From: an uncultured Parafilimonas sp.
GTDB lineage: Bacteria; Bacteroidota; Bacteroidia; Chitinophagales; Chitinophagaceae
Reading direction: 5' to 3'
Length of the DNA: 64,000 bases
Assembly: GCA_903882935.1 (NCBI GenBank)
Contig: CAIRZB010000061.1
Span: forward strand, 1 to 64,000
This document shows positions 1,262-43,881 of this stretch, piece by piece. The translations under genes and the position numbers were made by a program. Numbering within the stretch: position 1 is the first letter of the stretch; each line of letters starts with the position of its first letter. The notes under the pieces were generated by a model that ran no database searches, was not told the origin of the DNA, and worked only from the letters and a program-made list of their open reading frames with translations.

Positions 1262-1861
1262 ATGAAAGTAGGCTTTGTATTTGAATGCCAGGACCAGGGG
1301 CCCGATGAGCTGGTTTATACAAAAGTTGCGAAGGATTTATGCAAACGTTTTGAGATACTGCCGGAAAATATTTCGCCGTTAGGCAACAAGCACGCGGTTA
1401 TTAACGAGAGTGCAGGAGATGTTGACGCTATGTTTGCAAACGGTTGCAGTTACGTGTTTATTGTTTGGGACCGGATGCCCAAATGGAAGCAAGGAACCGG
1501 CCGATGCGGAGATGATAAACATGCATTATCCGCCAAGCTAACCGCTTACGGCATCAACTTGAACAAAGTAATAATGTGTTGCATTGACGAAATGCTCGAA
1601 AGCTGGTTGATAGCGGACGGGAGGGGAGTAACAAATTATTTCAAAAAACTGAACCACCTGAACCCTGATTTCCCCGACCATAAGAAAAAATCACAACAGT
1701 CTGCTCCGAAAGAAAGATTATCTGTTTACAATGGCAGATACAATGAATATAAAGACAACTTGGGAATACTTGCCGGGCTAAACGGCGATTACAGCAGGGC
1801 AGCACAATGGAACACCTCATTTGGAGAGTTTGTTGCGGCTATTGAAACTATTTGCCCTTAA
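1262..1861 (+). CDS. DUF4276/TOPRIM-like partner of the upstream ATPase
   Basis: This 199-residue protein has spaced acidic elements that resemble DUF4276/TOPRIM-like proteins: an early Glu in FECQDQ, a hydrophobic strand ending in WD (VFIVWD), and an ESWLIAD motif matching the family's E-x-W-L-x-A-D. In OLD-, PARIS- and AbiL-type systems a TOPRIM-like or RloB-like subunit is the effector nuclease working with an AAA ATPase. The ATG lies two bases after the ATPase stop, which suggests translational coupling. The DxD element is not clean (WDRMP), so nuclease activity is uncertain. Family assignment is by motif only. Confidence 0.6.
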   Translation: MKVGFVFECQDQGPDELVYTKVAKDLCKRFEILPENISPLGNKHAVINESAGDVDAMFANGCSYVFIVWDRMPKWKQGTGRCGDDKHALSAKLTAYGINLNKVIMCCIDEMLESWLIADGRGVTNYFKKLNHLNPDFPDHKKKSQQSAPKERLSVYNGRYNEYKDNLGILAGLNGDYSRAAQWNTSFGEFVAAIETICP

Positions 1862-1930: not shown

Positions 1931-2515
1931 GGGGCCAAGCCAACGCTTGGTTTTGTTACCTATGGCAACCAGGTACACGCCGCCGAAGGCGACAGAATAG
2001 CCCTTCGGAACTGGAAGTTCCTAAAGAGCGATATGCTGTAGGTATGCCGCCCTTAAGGGCTTGGGGAAAATACGGATTATTTTTTCGATGGGCTTTACCC
2101 ATCGCTGACAGATGGCCGCCCCTACAGGGCTTCGCTCCTCCGCTCTCCGCTCCCTAGGCACTTCCATTTCCGGGGCTATATTCTGTTGCGTTGGGCAACG
2201 GGTTAAAAGCCGCCGAAGGCGACAGAATAGCGCTTCGGAACTGGAAGTTCCGGAAGAGCGATATGCTTTAGGTATGCCGCCCTTAAAGGGCTTGGGGAAA
2301 ATACGGATTATTTTTTCGATGGGCTGCATCCCGCTTGAGCGGGACTGACAGATGGCCGCCCTTTCAGGGCTTCGCTCCTCCGCTCTCCGCTCCCTAGGAA
2401 CTTCCAGTTCCGGGGCCACGCCTTGGCGTGGTTCTGTTGCCTTGGGCAACGGGTTACACGCCGCCAAAGGCGACAAAATAGCGCTTCGGAACTGGAAGTT
2501 CCGATAGAGCGATAC
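1931..2515. repeat. Tandem 240-bp palindrome-rich repeat, 2.4 units
   Basis: Two nearly full units (1931-2171 and 2172-2411) and a partial third (2412-2515) repeat with a period of about 240 bp. Each unit is a string of short hairpins joined by well-conserved linkers. The hairpins include GGAACT-GGA-AGTTCC, CGCC-GAA-GGCG and GCCC-TTAA-GGGC. Hairpin arms vary between units while pairing is often kept. Reading frames through this block on both strands follow the repeat and are not genes. The block lies just downstream of the ATPase pair. Its function is unknown; such blocks occur between genes in Bacteroidota. Confidence 0.85.
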
Positions 2516-2883: not shown

Positions 2884-3396
2884 TCAATGCAGGTCAACGT
2901 CAAAATGGCCGTTTGTGATGGTGGCTTTTATAATGGTGGTGGTATCGCTGTAAAAAGCCAGGCCGGTAAAGCTGCCTTGCGCGTTGCCGGTGGTGAGTTT
3001 GGTAATGGTAACGCTGGGCTGGTTGGCGTTGCCGGTCAGCAGGCTGTCGTACCGGGCCAGCTTGGCAGGGGTGTACAGCAACGTAAGGGTGGTGCCCGCG
3101 CTGCTGTCAGTTTGGTAGGTGTCGGCGGTGATGGGTTTGGCCGAGACTATTTCAAACCCCAGCTGGGCCGACTCGAAGCCGCCTTTTGTAGAATCGCCAA
3201 ACGCCCCTTGGAAACCCACTACCGACAGGCGGTAGGTACCCGTGCTGCTGTCTTTTATGCCCAGCACATTGGTGTTAAACGTGTCGCGGCTATTGTTAAC
3301 GGTGGCATACAACACGCCATAACTGGGGGTAATGCCCTTGGTGCAAGCATACAGTACAATAACACTACAAACGGCCAGTACAACTATTTTTTTCAT
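2884..3396 (-). CDS. Lipoprotein, DUF6252-like
   Basis: The protein has about 170 residues and starts MKKIVVLAVCSV. A hydrophobic signal ends in the lipobox LYAC, so it should be a lipoprotein exported to the periplasm or outer membrane. The frame stays open upstream, but this ATG directly precedes the signal peptide and is preferred. The mature part is rich in Thr, Ser and Asn and predicted beta, ending with an ATITNGHFDVDL-type strand. The lipoprotein at 7726-8235 has the same layout (VxVVGF, TVTITSL, SGTFSG, ITDGKF), so the two are paralogues. No function is known; DUF6252-like is my closest guess. Confidence 0.75.
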   Translation of the reverse strand: MKKIVVLAVCSVIVLYACTKGITPSYGVLYATVNNSRDTFNTNVLGIKDSSTGTYRLSVVGFQGAFGDSTKGGFESAQLGFEIVSAKPITADTYQTDSSAGTTLTLLYTPAKLARYDSLLTGNANQPSVTITKLTTGNAQGSFTGLAFYSDTTTIIKATITNGHFDVDLH

Positions 3397-3463
3397 GCGC
3401 AATGGTATGGTGTTGTCATTTACGCGCCAAGGTAGGCATTTATTGTGTAGAAGTTTATAGTCG

Positions 3464-3567
3464 CGCCAAGACGCTAAGGCGCAAAGCGTAAAAAGAAAAT
3501 TACTGCTGCTTCCACAGGATAGCAAGTTTCGCCCCGGCTGTTCTTAGCGGCTTTGCGCCTTTGCGCG
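3464..3567. repeat. Imperfect inverted repeat, about 100 bp
   Basis: The left arm, around CGCTAAGGCGCAAAG (3472-3486), is answered by a right arm containing CTTTGCGCC (3552-3560), separated by about 65 bp. The same core (GCGCCTTTGCGC) recurs again at 3604-3615. It resembles the dispersed 'cgctaaggcgcaaag' palindromic elements found in many bacterial intergenic regions. It lies between two divergent genes and has no coding capacity. Confidence 0.55.
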
Positions 3568-19242: not shown

Positions 19243-19260
19243 ATATGGGTTATTTTATTC

Positions 19261-19365
19261 GTGAATCGTGAATCGTGAAACGTGAATCGTCAAACGTGAA
19301 ACGTGAAACGTCAAACGTGAATCGTGAAACGTCAAACGTGAAACGTCAAACGAGAAACGTGAAAA
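19261..19365. repeat. 7-bp variable minisatellite upstream of hddA
   Basis: Fifteen consecutive heptamers, mixtures of GTGAATC, GTGAAAC and GTCAAAC, run without interruption and begin 18 bases upstream of the hddA start. The last two units are degenerate. The remaining 250 bases up to the next gene end (19616) hold nothing I recognise. Copy number is likely to vary between strains. Confidence 0.95.
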
Positions 19366-41274: not shown

Positions 41275-43227
41275 ATGTTGATGATTAAACCTGCGGCACT
41301 ATACAATCCGTTTATTGTTGGTAAAAAGCTGGTGGCATTGTTGTTTATGTTAACAATAGTTGTCTCGCCTTTGCGCCTTTTTGCACAACAGGTAAGGGAC
41401 ACCTTGGTAATAAACGACGGCCAAAACGGCGAGTACCCCATCAACCGTTATTTGTACATTTACAAAACAAACCTCCATGTTACCCCCAACTTTGTAAACG
41501 ACTCAGTACAAACTAACCAACTTAAGCCGCTTTTTCCGGCACGGTCTTTTAACGATGTGCAGCATTCTGCTAATTTTTATTGGTTGTTGCTTACCGAAAA
41601 AAATAACCACCCTTTCGATGAAACTTTCTACTACCAATTAAACCATCCGCAACTGTATAGTGTAACTGCTTACGCCAAAACAACTGCAGGCTTCAGTTAT
41701 TTGGGCAAAAGTGGGTATGCCTACCCCTTTAGCCAAAGGATGTACAATTATTACGACAATGTTTTTCCTATCAAGATAAAAAGTGGGCAAACAATTACAG
41801 TGTTGCTAAACATAAACATCAGTAACGGCAGTAATCCTTTTTTTGGCCCCGAGTTAAGCAATGCAAATACTTTTAAAGCCAAGGAGCAAAAGTTTTATAT
41901 AAACAACGGCATTATTGCGGGCATTATGCTTACGGCGTTTTTGCTCAATTTATTTTTAGGTGTTTCCCTAAAAGAAAAATTGCATTTTTTGTATGCTGCG
42001 TATATACTGTGTGTATTGTACGAGATACTGCTAACCCAAGGGCTTGACCGGCAATTTTTTTACAGTGGTGTAGCCGGTATTAACAACCTGGTAAGGTACA
42101 TAGTGCCATGTGCTGGGCTTGTTATGCTTGCATATATCATGCAATTGTTTCTAAACCAAAAAAGAAGCAACAGCCGTATAAAAATATTGGTTGACATAGC
42201 CAATATTACCTGTATAACCCTTACATGCGTATACATGGGGCTGTATAGTTTTTCAATGGCCAACAACACTGTAACCAACTATTACCAAACCAGCCTTGCG
42301 GTTATTGCCATTGTACAAATGCTGTTGGTTTTTGTGAGTGCGATTGAAAAAGCCTTTCAAGGCAACAAACTTGCTTGGTTTTATATTGCTGCGATACTAT
42401 GTATATTCGCAGGCATCTCTGAATACGGCCTTATATTTTTGGGTGTAACCGCCGCGGAATCATCCATCACAAAACACCCCAACGATATGCAAATTGGGCT
42501 GGTGGTTGAAACCATGGTAGTGTTTTTAGGCATAGTTTACCGGTATAACTTGTTTAAAAAGGAGAAGGAAATTTTGCTTACGGAAATAAACACCCACCAG
42601 GCCAAAATGCTAAACAGCATAGTGGCCGCCCAGGAGGAAGAACGGAAGCGCATTGCGGAAGACTTGCACGACGATGTTGGAGCCACCTTAAGTGCGTTGG
42701 CCATGCACATAAGCAATAAGCCGCAAGATTTTGAAAACACCAATTCGGTTGATAAATATTGCAGCCAGGGTCTTTTTTTAAGCAATAAGGCCGTGGCTGA
42801 TATACGCACCATTGCGCACAACTTGTTGCCAAAAGATTTTACAACAATGGGGCTTTTTCAAGTGCTTGAAAAAAGAATTGAGGAACTGAACAGCTTACGG
42901 AAAATTGATTTTTCCATAATTATCGAAGGCAGTGAAAAAAGGCTGCCCGAAGTGGTATCTATAACGGTGTACAGGGTAATAAACGAACTGCTCACCAACA
43001 TATTAAAACATTCCATGGCGTCTGAAGCGGCAATACAATTGCTGGTGGAAGAAAAAAATATACAAATAATGGCGGAGGACGACGGCGTTGGCTATAACCT
43101 GCAGGTTACTGGCCACGGCGGAATGGGCCTAAAAAACATAACCGGGCGTGTTGGGTTTTTAAAGGGCCACATAAACACCGACAGTAGCCAGAGTGGCACA
43201 ACTACTGTAATAAACATACCGTTATAA
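41275..43227 (+). CDS. Sensor histidine kinase, 7TMR-DISM type (HisKA_3)
   Basis: A 650-residue membrane kinase. After a signal (ending LRLFAQQ) there is a periplasmic 7TMR-DISM ligand domain (about 20-200), then seven membrane helices (about 205-410), a coiled coil, and a HisKA_3 helix with His465 in EDLHDDVGATLSALAMHI. The HATPase domain follows, with NELLTNILKHS (N-box), EDDGVGYN (G1) and GHGGMGLKNI. This is the NarX/DesK-like kinase class. The cognate regulator begins three bases after its stop. Confidence 0.93.
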   Translation: MLMIKPAALYNPFIVGKKLVALLFMLTIVVSPLRLFAQQVRDTLVINDGQNGEYPINRYLYIYKTNLHVTPNFVNDSVQTNQLKPLFPARSFNDVQHSANFYWLLLTEKNNHPFDETFYYQLNHPQLYSVTAYAKTTAGFSYLGKSGYAYPFSQRMYNYYDNVFPIKIKSGQTITVLLNINISNGSNPFFGPELSNANTFKAKEQKFYINNGIIAGIMLTAFLLNLFLGVSLKEKLHFLYAAYILCVLYEILLTQGLDRQFFYSGVAGINNLVRYIVPCAGLVMLAYIMQLFLNQKRSNSRIKILVDIANITCITLTCVYMGLYSFSMANNTVTNYYQTSLAVIAIVQMLLVFVSAIEKAFQGNKLAWFYIAAILCIFAGISEYGLIFLGVTAAESSITKHPNDMQIGLVVETMVVFLGIVYRYNLFKKEKEILLTEINTHQAKMLNSIVAAQEEERKRIAEDLHDDVGATLSALAMHISNKPQDFENTNSVDKYCSQGLFLSNKAVADIRTIAHNLLPKDFTTMGLFQVLEKRIEELNSLRKIDFSIIIEGSEKRLPEVVSITVYRVINELLTNILKHSMASEAAIQLLVEEKNIQIMAEDDGVGYNLQVTGHGGMGLKNITGRVGFLKGHINTDSSQSGTTTVINIPL

Positions 43228-43230
43228 GCC

Positions 43231-43881
43231 ATGGCAGAAAGAGAGGAACCGGTAAAAATAATTATTGCGGATGACCACCGGCTGTTTGCCGATGGTGTGG
43301 AACAAATTATTAACAATGTGCCAGGCTACGAAGTAATAGCAAGTGTTGACAACGGCAAACTGCTGATGCAGGTATTAAACCGGTTGGAGCCGGATATTAT
43401 TTTATTGGATATCAGTATGCCGTTTATGGACGGTTTGGAAACTGCCTTACAAATAAAAAAGAAGAAGCCTGCGGTTAAAATTGTTTTTATTAGCATGCAT
43501 TACGATGCTGGCATAAAGGCCTTTATACATGCTAACGGCATCAGCGGGTTTGTTATTAAAAATATTAGCGCCCAGGATTTAAAGCAAACAATACACAAAG
43601 TTAGCTTGGGCGAAAAAGTATTTATCGTGCCCCAAAGCACTGGTGAACAGGTGCAACAACCCACGCCAGTTAATGAATTTACCCACCAATACAAACTAAC
43701 CAAAACAGAAGTAGCCATCATTAAGCTTATTGCCGAAGGTGACAATACCAAAACCATAGCCGACAAACGCAGCCTTAGTTACCTAACCGTTGAGTCGCAC
43801 AGAAAAAACATTTTGCGCAAACTAAAAGCAAAAAACATGGCCGAAGTGGTTGCGTTTGCTGTGAAATATGGCTTGGCGTAA
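43231..43881 (+). CDS. Response regulator, NarL/LuxR family
   Basis: This 216-residue DNA-binding regulator has a receiver domain with the acidic pair DDH at the start, phospho-acceptor Asp60 in ILLDISMPFMDGL, and Lys in FVIKNISA. A LuxR-type helix-turn-helix (LTKTEVAIIKLIAEGDNTKTIA to TVESHRKNILRKLKAKN) occupies 150-216. It is co-transcribed with the kinase upstream. Its targets are unknown; the palindrome before the kinase gene is one candidate. Confidence 0.95.
   Translation: MAEREEPVKIIIADDHRLFADGVEQIINNVPGYEVIASVDNGKLLMQVLNRLEPDIILLDISMPFMDGLETALQIKKKKPAVKIVFISMHYDAGIKAFIHANGISGFVIKNISAQDLKQTIHKVSLGEKVFIVPQSTGEQVQQPTPVNEFTHQYKLTKTEVAIIKLIAEGDNTKTIADKRSLSYLTVESHRKNILRKLKAKNMAEVVAFAVKYGLA

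Follow-up and report, generated by a model that had tools for sequence, protein, structure and literature searches.

The analysed stretch of 64,000 nt from an uncultured Parafilimonas sp. (hereafter the window) begins with a gene pair at 57-1861, an AAA ATPase (AAA_21) followed by a DUF4276-like protein whose match is below the cut-off. The similarity of the ATPase to the defence ATPase MAD3 is also far below the cut-off, and the two genes may form a defence-type pair. Just downstream of them lies a block of palindromic repeats at 1931-2515, between convergent ORFs at 1262-1861 (+) and 2884-3525 (-); by codon-usage gene prediction, the nearest gene on the left is 57-1259, also on the + strand. 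Further into the window, at 19260-19364, the 7-bp sequence CGTGAAA is repeated in 15 tandem copies, and similar CGTGAAA runs adjoin a transposase gene on contig C70 of the host genome (L012).

Layout of the tandem block

The block is an imperfect tandem repeat of about 2.5 units. An earlier note, made from the window alone, had described it as a tandem with spacings of 241 and 240 bp; the tandem is real, but these spacings hold only for some landmarks, because matching blocks recur at 230 and 251 bp (D1), 240 bp (D2), and 231 bp (D3). The first tandem copy (1931-2170) and the second (2171-2410) are identical at 204 of 230 aligned bases, with 20 gap columns. Tandem Repeats Finder, at a minimum score of 40, did not report the block. 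Folding of 1931-2545 was far stronger than that of 20 dinucleotide shuffles (z -9.6). Neither a plasmid collection nor a phage collection gave a match to the block, and carriage on plasmids or phages was rejected on this ground.

The building block is a 53-nt unit composed of a small hairpin (h1), a linker close to AGAATANNN, a longer hairpin (h2; CGGAACT-GGA-AGTTCCG plus lower pairs), and the letters AGCG. Side-by-side comparison of copies gave the unit consensus [GTCGCC AAA GGCGAC] AGAATA NNN CTN [CGGAACT GGA AGTTCCG] NNG AGCG. Two units placed back to back make up an element, and the features of the block are as follows, with scores from the covariance model R1 described below.

1931..1978, - strand: left half of element 1, truncated, h2 missing (from the sequence; same place as 2387-2450)
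1935-1950: extra hairpin CCAAGC/GCTTGG in the linker of the left half of element 1 (from the sequence)
1955-1969, - strand: remnant h1 in the left half of element 1 (from the sequence)
1979..2031, + strand: unit (h1, linker, h2, AGCG), right half of element 1; R1 match, 67.3 bits
2045..2146, + strand: repeat B, copy 1, with hairpins GCCC/GGGC (2049-2060) and CGATGGG/CCCATCG (2086-2104)
2147..2199, - strand: unit, left half of element 2; R1 match, 46.5 bits
2209..2261, + strand: unit, right half of element 2, separated from its partner by 9 nt; R1 match, 69.8 bits
2275..2386, + strand: repeat B, copy 2; 86% match to 2045-2146
2330-2343: hairpin CCCGC/GCGGG, in place of the CCCATCG partner in repeat B copy 2
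2387..2450, - strand: unit, left half of element 3; R1 match, 36.3 bits
2416-2431: extra hairpin CCACGC/GCGTGG in the linker of the left half of element 3
2460..2512, + strand: unit, right half of element 3, separated from its partner by 9 nt; R1 match, 68.7 bits

The block thus holds two complete pairs (2147-2261 and 2387-2512) and one truncated pair (1931-2031), whose left half is absent among the R1 matches. The stretches of 115 and 125 nt between the pairs carry repeat B, with hairpins of its own. Repeat B has 15 matches in the genome, including itself and the copy at 2275.

Compensatory change between hairpins of the block had been proposed for two places. The hairpins CCAAGC/GCTTGG and CCACGC/GCGTGG do occupy the same place in elements 1 and 3 and differ in a compensatory way, but by a single pair (A-T to C-G), which makes a weak example; the intervening copy has no hairpin there, and 1935-1950 versus 2416-2431 is therefore one change seen in two copies. 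The other case, CGATGGG/CCCATCG against CCCGC/GCGGG, proved to be a replacement. In the second tandem copy, CGATGGG is kept at 2317-2323, its partner is lost, and a different hairpin stands in the partner's place; the original CGATGGG...CCCATCG pairing is kept in several other genomic copies.

Dispersal and pairing of the 53-nt unit

We searched the host genome (5.54 Mb, 114 contigs) with the block and obtained 59 matches, so that the block is not just a local curiosity. Copies lie beyond the block locus, as the earlier note had asked to be checked, and they are dispersed across many contigs; local duplication alone was rejected as their source. After four duplicates and four non-fitting matches had been dropped, alignment A1 was made from 44 of the 48 distinct candidate units, with four degenerate ones left out, and covariance model R1 was built from these 44 copies. 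R1 found at least 78 matches in the host genome at E<=0.01 and at least 64 at E<=1e-5; these copy numbers are lower bounds because just 150 of 2750 first-look candidates were scored. For pairing and placement we used 59 R1 matches, that is, the 64 at E<=1e-5 minus six (C3:107884, four at C41:35530-36239, and C84:26761) plus one (C43:138545).

Among these 59 units, 24 form 12 tight divergent pairs with gaps of 7-9 nt, back to back, with the h1 sides facing inward and h2 and AGCG facing outward. Some arrays, on C41 and C28, are head-to-tail instead of inverted. For the interiors of the wider pairs on C91 (184 and 224 nt), blastn-short at E<=1e-3 matched none of the other compared loci, among them the transposase locus described below. 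With genes predicted by a home-made codon-usage score, no overlap with a gene was seen for any of the 59 units. The units fall into 21 clusters: the neighbouring genes are convergent at 10, co-oriented at 7, and divergent at none, and the other 4 could not be judged. Compared with a canonical REP, which is a short single palindrome of 20-40 bp, the unit is longer and carries two hairpins. It is dispersed and, by the same home-made prediction, extragenic like a canonical REP. The GT[AG]G tag 5' of the hairpin was found in none of the 44 units at the four positions checked. A second unit family with the same layout and other h2 tips occurs at C41:35500-36250 (L075), where it is head-to-tail, and on C15 (L076).

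Covariation among the 44 aligned copies was mixed. Two h1 positions change on both sides (in 10 and 4 of 44 sequences), and the covariation score of 0.088 exceeded all 500 shuffles (mean 0.053). In contrast, the number of pairs with two-sided changes was equalled or exceeded in 258 of 500 shuffles and the number of pair types in 474 of 500, and a control with the partner slid by -3 columns scored slightly higher (0.094 versus 0.088). The share of paired cells, at 91.1%, was far above that of any slid version (at most 45.3%). RNAalifold on A1 returned just four pairs, all in h1; the h2 pairs were scored under a structure that we specified. In the lower h2 stem, counted in 39 units after the five of 44 without the AGC tail had been left out, one position was paired in 37 of 39 (28.7 expected), with 17 of 19 distinct combinations pairing against 13.6 (7 of 5000 shuffles). 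Another was paired in 19 of 39 (10.3 expected), its distinct combinations not being significant (827 of 5000), and a third gave no covariation signal. Because the copies are related, the covarying changes are not independent events. The covariation within the genome is modest, with one slid control as high.

Transposase genes and the layout around them

The genome has five PF01797 matches, and one of these genes, on contig C39, is flanked on both sides by units of the window's sequence. It encodes 181 aa and lies between units at 42978-43030(-) and 43675-43727(+), so the search for a REP-associated tyrosine transposase (RAYT) gene suggested in the earlier note was successful. The protein scored 111.1 bits against NCBIfam REP_Tyr_transpos NF047646 (curated cut-off, 80). 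It carries NHLH at residues 60-63 and YIHNNP at 143-148, corresponding to the motifs NH[LIV]H and YIH[QN]NP of TnpA-Y1 subclass 2.6 (RAYT group 5). As to the WQ motif, W122 is invariant in seven aligned proteins and is followed by T, not Q. The length and the distance of 80 from H63 to Y143 agree with the values published for subclass 2.6, that is, a median length of 179 aa and an HuH-to-Y distance of about 82 (PMC6006769). The AlphaFold model was modest (mean pLDDT 61.9, last 49 residues under 50). Among fold matches, 4er8 ranked best (E 3.9e-5; TM-score by query, 0.50); this entry is a REP-associated tyrosine transposase in complex with a REP hairpin, and phmmer gave just E 0.018 to it.

A second RAYT, on C78, is 58% identical to the C39 protein; the units that belong to it share the layout and differ in their h2 tips, and the C41 and C15 units resemble them. 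Four further Y1_Tnp genes (C58, C1, C12, and C70; L009-L012) each lie in their own array of different palindromic repeats. The transposases of C58, C12, and C70 have DH[LV]H and Y---Q--HH motifs and are subclass 1.2-like, a subclass for which no REP is entered in Table 1 of PMC6006769. A RAYT-like gene at C52:303-755 (L073:1-1100), below the NCBIfam cut-off, lies between GTTGGTGAAAACACCAACATTGGCGG-type repeats.

We scanned 400-nt flanks of 39 RAYT-homolog loci, the C39 locus among them, for two hairpins with loops 24-27 nt apart, a spacing window that was chosen after the loci had been inspected and was applied identically to the controls. The two-hairpin layout occurred at 24 of 39 loci, with 57 readings; seven of these were repeat readings of hairpins already counted on the opposite strand, and merging them left 50 places. 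Removal of duplicate records (two locus pairs) left 48 places at 23 of 37 loci. Two runs of ten dinucleotide shuffles per flank yielded mean totals of 0.3 and 0.0, and more distant regions yielded four places; a few of the layout units found look accidental. At the remaining 15 of 39 loci there was no unit under the layout criterion. The hairpin arms vary widely between loci, and the layout is constant. The 97% of cells that are paired in these units is no test, since unit selection demands pairing. Tag, orientation, and loops were not among the selection criteria: AGC follows h2 in 14 of 20 distinct units and AAC in three, and of 48 oriented units, 37 have h1 towards the gene and 11 away from it.

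In a sample of 147 genomes of the bacterial family, RAYT relatives were present in 73 and units resembling those of the window, under strict filters, in 19. A RAYT was present in 15 of the 19 genomes with units and in 58 of the 128 others (p 0.007, uncorrected for relatedness). With the host genome left out, units were found in 9 of 11 genomes with close RAYT relatives compared with 9 of 135 others (p 3.7e-8, also uncorrected), where "close" means a best E<=1e-70, a cut set after the table had been inspected. Close RAYT relatives are thus the better predictor of units. Four genomes have units and no RAYT at E<=1e-20, namely G047, G103 (29 matches), G110, and G130 (14 matches). The pattern of repeat B had 12 hits in its own genome, one in one congener, and none in the 145 others; no enzyme was identified for it.

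Six stretches of G009, from another genus of the family, contain 17 units, all but one of which form eight tight divergent pairs. For five of these eight pairs we compared the corresponding sites in the congener G109: three were shared, one was reduced to a single hairpin, and one was absent. One shared pair of 113 nt is almost unchanged, with immediate flanks that scarcely align; the two other shared pairs lie inside long alignments. The DNA around the site that lacks its pair in G109 is unalignable, and with a single hairpin at the other changed site, none of the five was a clean empty site. These sites fit discrete elements that come, go, and decay, with transposition itself unproven.

Origin of the block and its place among known systems

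Small gene-less palindromic elements like those of the block occur across the genome and on both sides of a RAYT gene, so the block most likely belongs to a known kind of mobile bacterial repeat and is not a new RNA. We consider it very probable that the block is a cluster of non-autonomous, RAYT-mobilised miniature elements of the REP/TIR type, interleaved with a second dispersed repeat. The RAYT on C39, located between units of the same sequence, is most likely the autonomous partner, and each element, with h1 inside and h2 and AGCG outside, corresponds to both ends of a RAYT locus minus the gene. The mobile palindromic element proposed in the earlier note thus gains support from context: dispersal, positions outside predicted genes, frequent inverted pairs, and the flanking of a RAYT. 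By analogy with published work on TnpA-REP and IS608, a Y1/HUH enzyme would bind the folded single strand via the hairpin tips and an unpaired AGC(G) tag that replaces GTAG, cut near the outer edge, and copy or move the pair into intergenic DNA. According to the text of PMC8266576, cleavage of single-stranded REPs by TnpA-REP takes place at CT close to the hairpin and is tag-dependent; we carry this mechanism over to the present units by inference. In the window, three pairs, the first of them truncated, alternate with repeat B, and local duplication of this composite would have produced the tandem of about 240 bp. Against this explanation count the variant with the extra hairpin and repeat B, to neither of which an enzyme was assigned, the four genomes with units and no RAYT at E<=1e-20, the 15 RAYT loci without a unit, the 11 reversed units, the modest covariation, and the head-to-tail arrays.

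The earlier note had also raised selection on structure, in RNA or in DNA, and this is supported in part. Between unit families the arms differ and the layout stays, and some covariation measures exceed shuffles; other measures do not, and one slid control scores as high. A structured RNA, or an element at mRNA 3' ends such as a terminator or stabiliser, could be the selected function, with the link to the transposase incidental. This is in line with the strong folding of the block, with the absence of the 17 judged clusters from sites between divergent genes, with some of the covarying pairs, and with the roles in termination and mRNA stabilisation that have been proposed for REPs (PMC3733652). 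We nevertheless regard it as improbable, because both orientations of the unit are seen, inverted pairs are frequent, and around RAYT genes h1 lies predominantly on the gene side. Rfam 15 gave no match at the gathering threshold over 1800-2900. An RNA gene as such was rejected: just two sub-threshold matches to miRNA families were seen, and these were taken as chance. The two roles are compatible, since a mobile element can gain a 3'-end role.

Tandem duplication of a chance palindrome, its pairing kept by template-switch repair (quasi-palindrome correction), would require no enzyme. It would account for the near identity of the first two tandem copies, the single compensatory pair could arise by template switching, and the pair cut to a single hairpin at an orthologous site fits palindrome deletion. 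As a full account, however, it is contradicted by the dispersal of the unit over many contigs, where it also flanks a RAYT, and by the recurrence of the layout, at near-fixed spacing and with different arms, around RAYTs of other genomes. We consider it very unlikely in that role, and likely for the local tandem step.

RAYT-associated elements of this kind have published relatives. Subclass 2.6 genes, mostly from Bacteroidetes, have at their flanks atypical structures that lack GT[AG]G and recur at other sites of the genome (Quentin et al., 2018; PMC6006769, main text). The C39 system shares the host group, both motifs, the length of about 180 aa, the GT[AG]G-less flanking structures, and the genomic copies, and the elements here are therefore of a known kind. 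The two-hairpin layout, the AGC tag, the orientation, and the gene-less back-to-back pairs are not described in the text of that paper, its Additional file 2 Table S1 aside. TIRtrons/TIRYT (Di Nocera et al., 2013; PMC3733652) likewise comprise RAYT-like genes between inverted repeats, some of them double palindromic, together with dispersed families that occur as dimers or clusters; the examples in its text are from other bacteria (S. maltophilia, P. putida, and Koribacter among them), and some share the motif GGGGWSAS. With the REPINs and BIMEs of GTAG-type RAYTs, as presented in PMC3116915, PMC2817692, and PMC8266576, the units have in common that they are intergenic, RAYT-associated inverted palindrome pairs, whereas they lack the GTAG tag and carry two hairpins per 53 nt. 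The detailed layout may be new; in the part of the literature covered, supplements aside, no paper describing it was found.

We tentatively propose, at somewhat less than even chances, that a bipartite recognition element, distinct from GTAG REPs, is common to the RAYTs of subclass 2.6. It would consist of two stem-loops with loops 24-27 nt apart and an unpaired AGC tag after the second; the arms could vary provided that pairing is kept, and the h2 tips would differ between two RAYTs in a single genome, as for C39 and C78. What the enzyme recognises would then be shape, spacing, tips, and tag, and each monomer of a dimer might take one hairpin. The present analysis supplies a concrete anatomy for the "atypical" repeats that accompany a sparsely characterised RAYT group, and its enzyme/repeat pairs, with many arms and one layout, are a natural data set for what a single-strand transposase reads.
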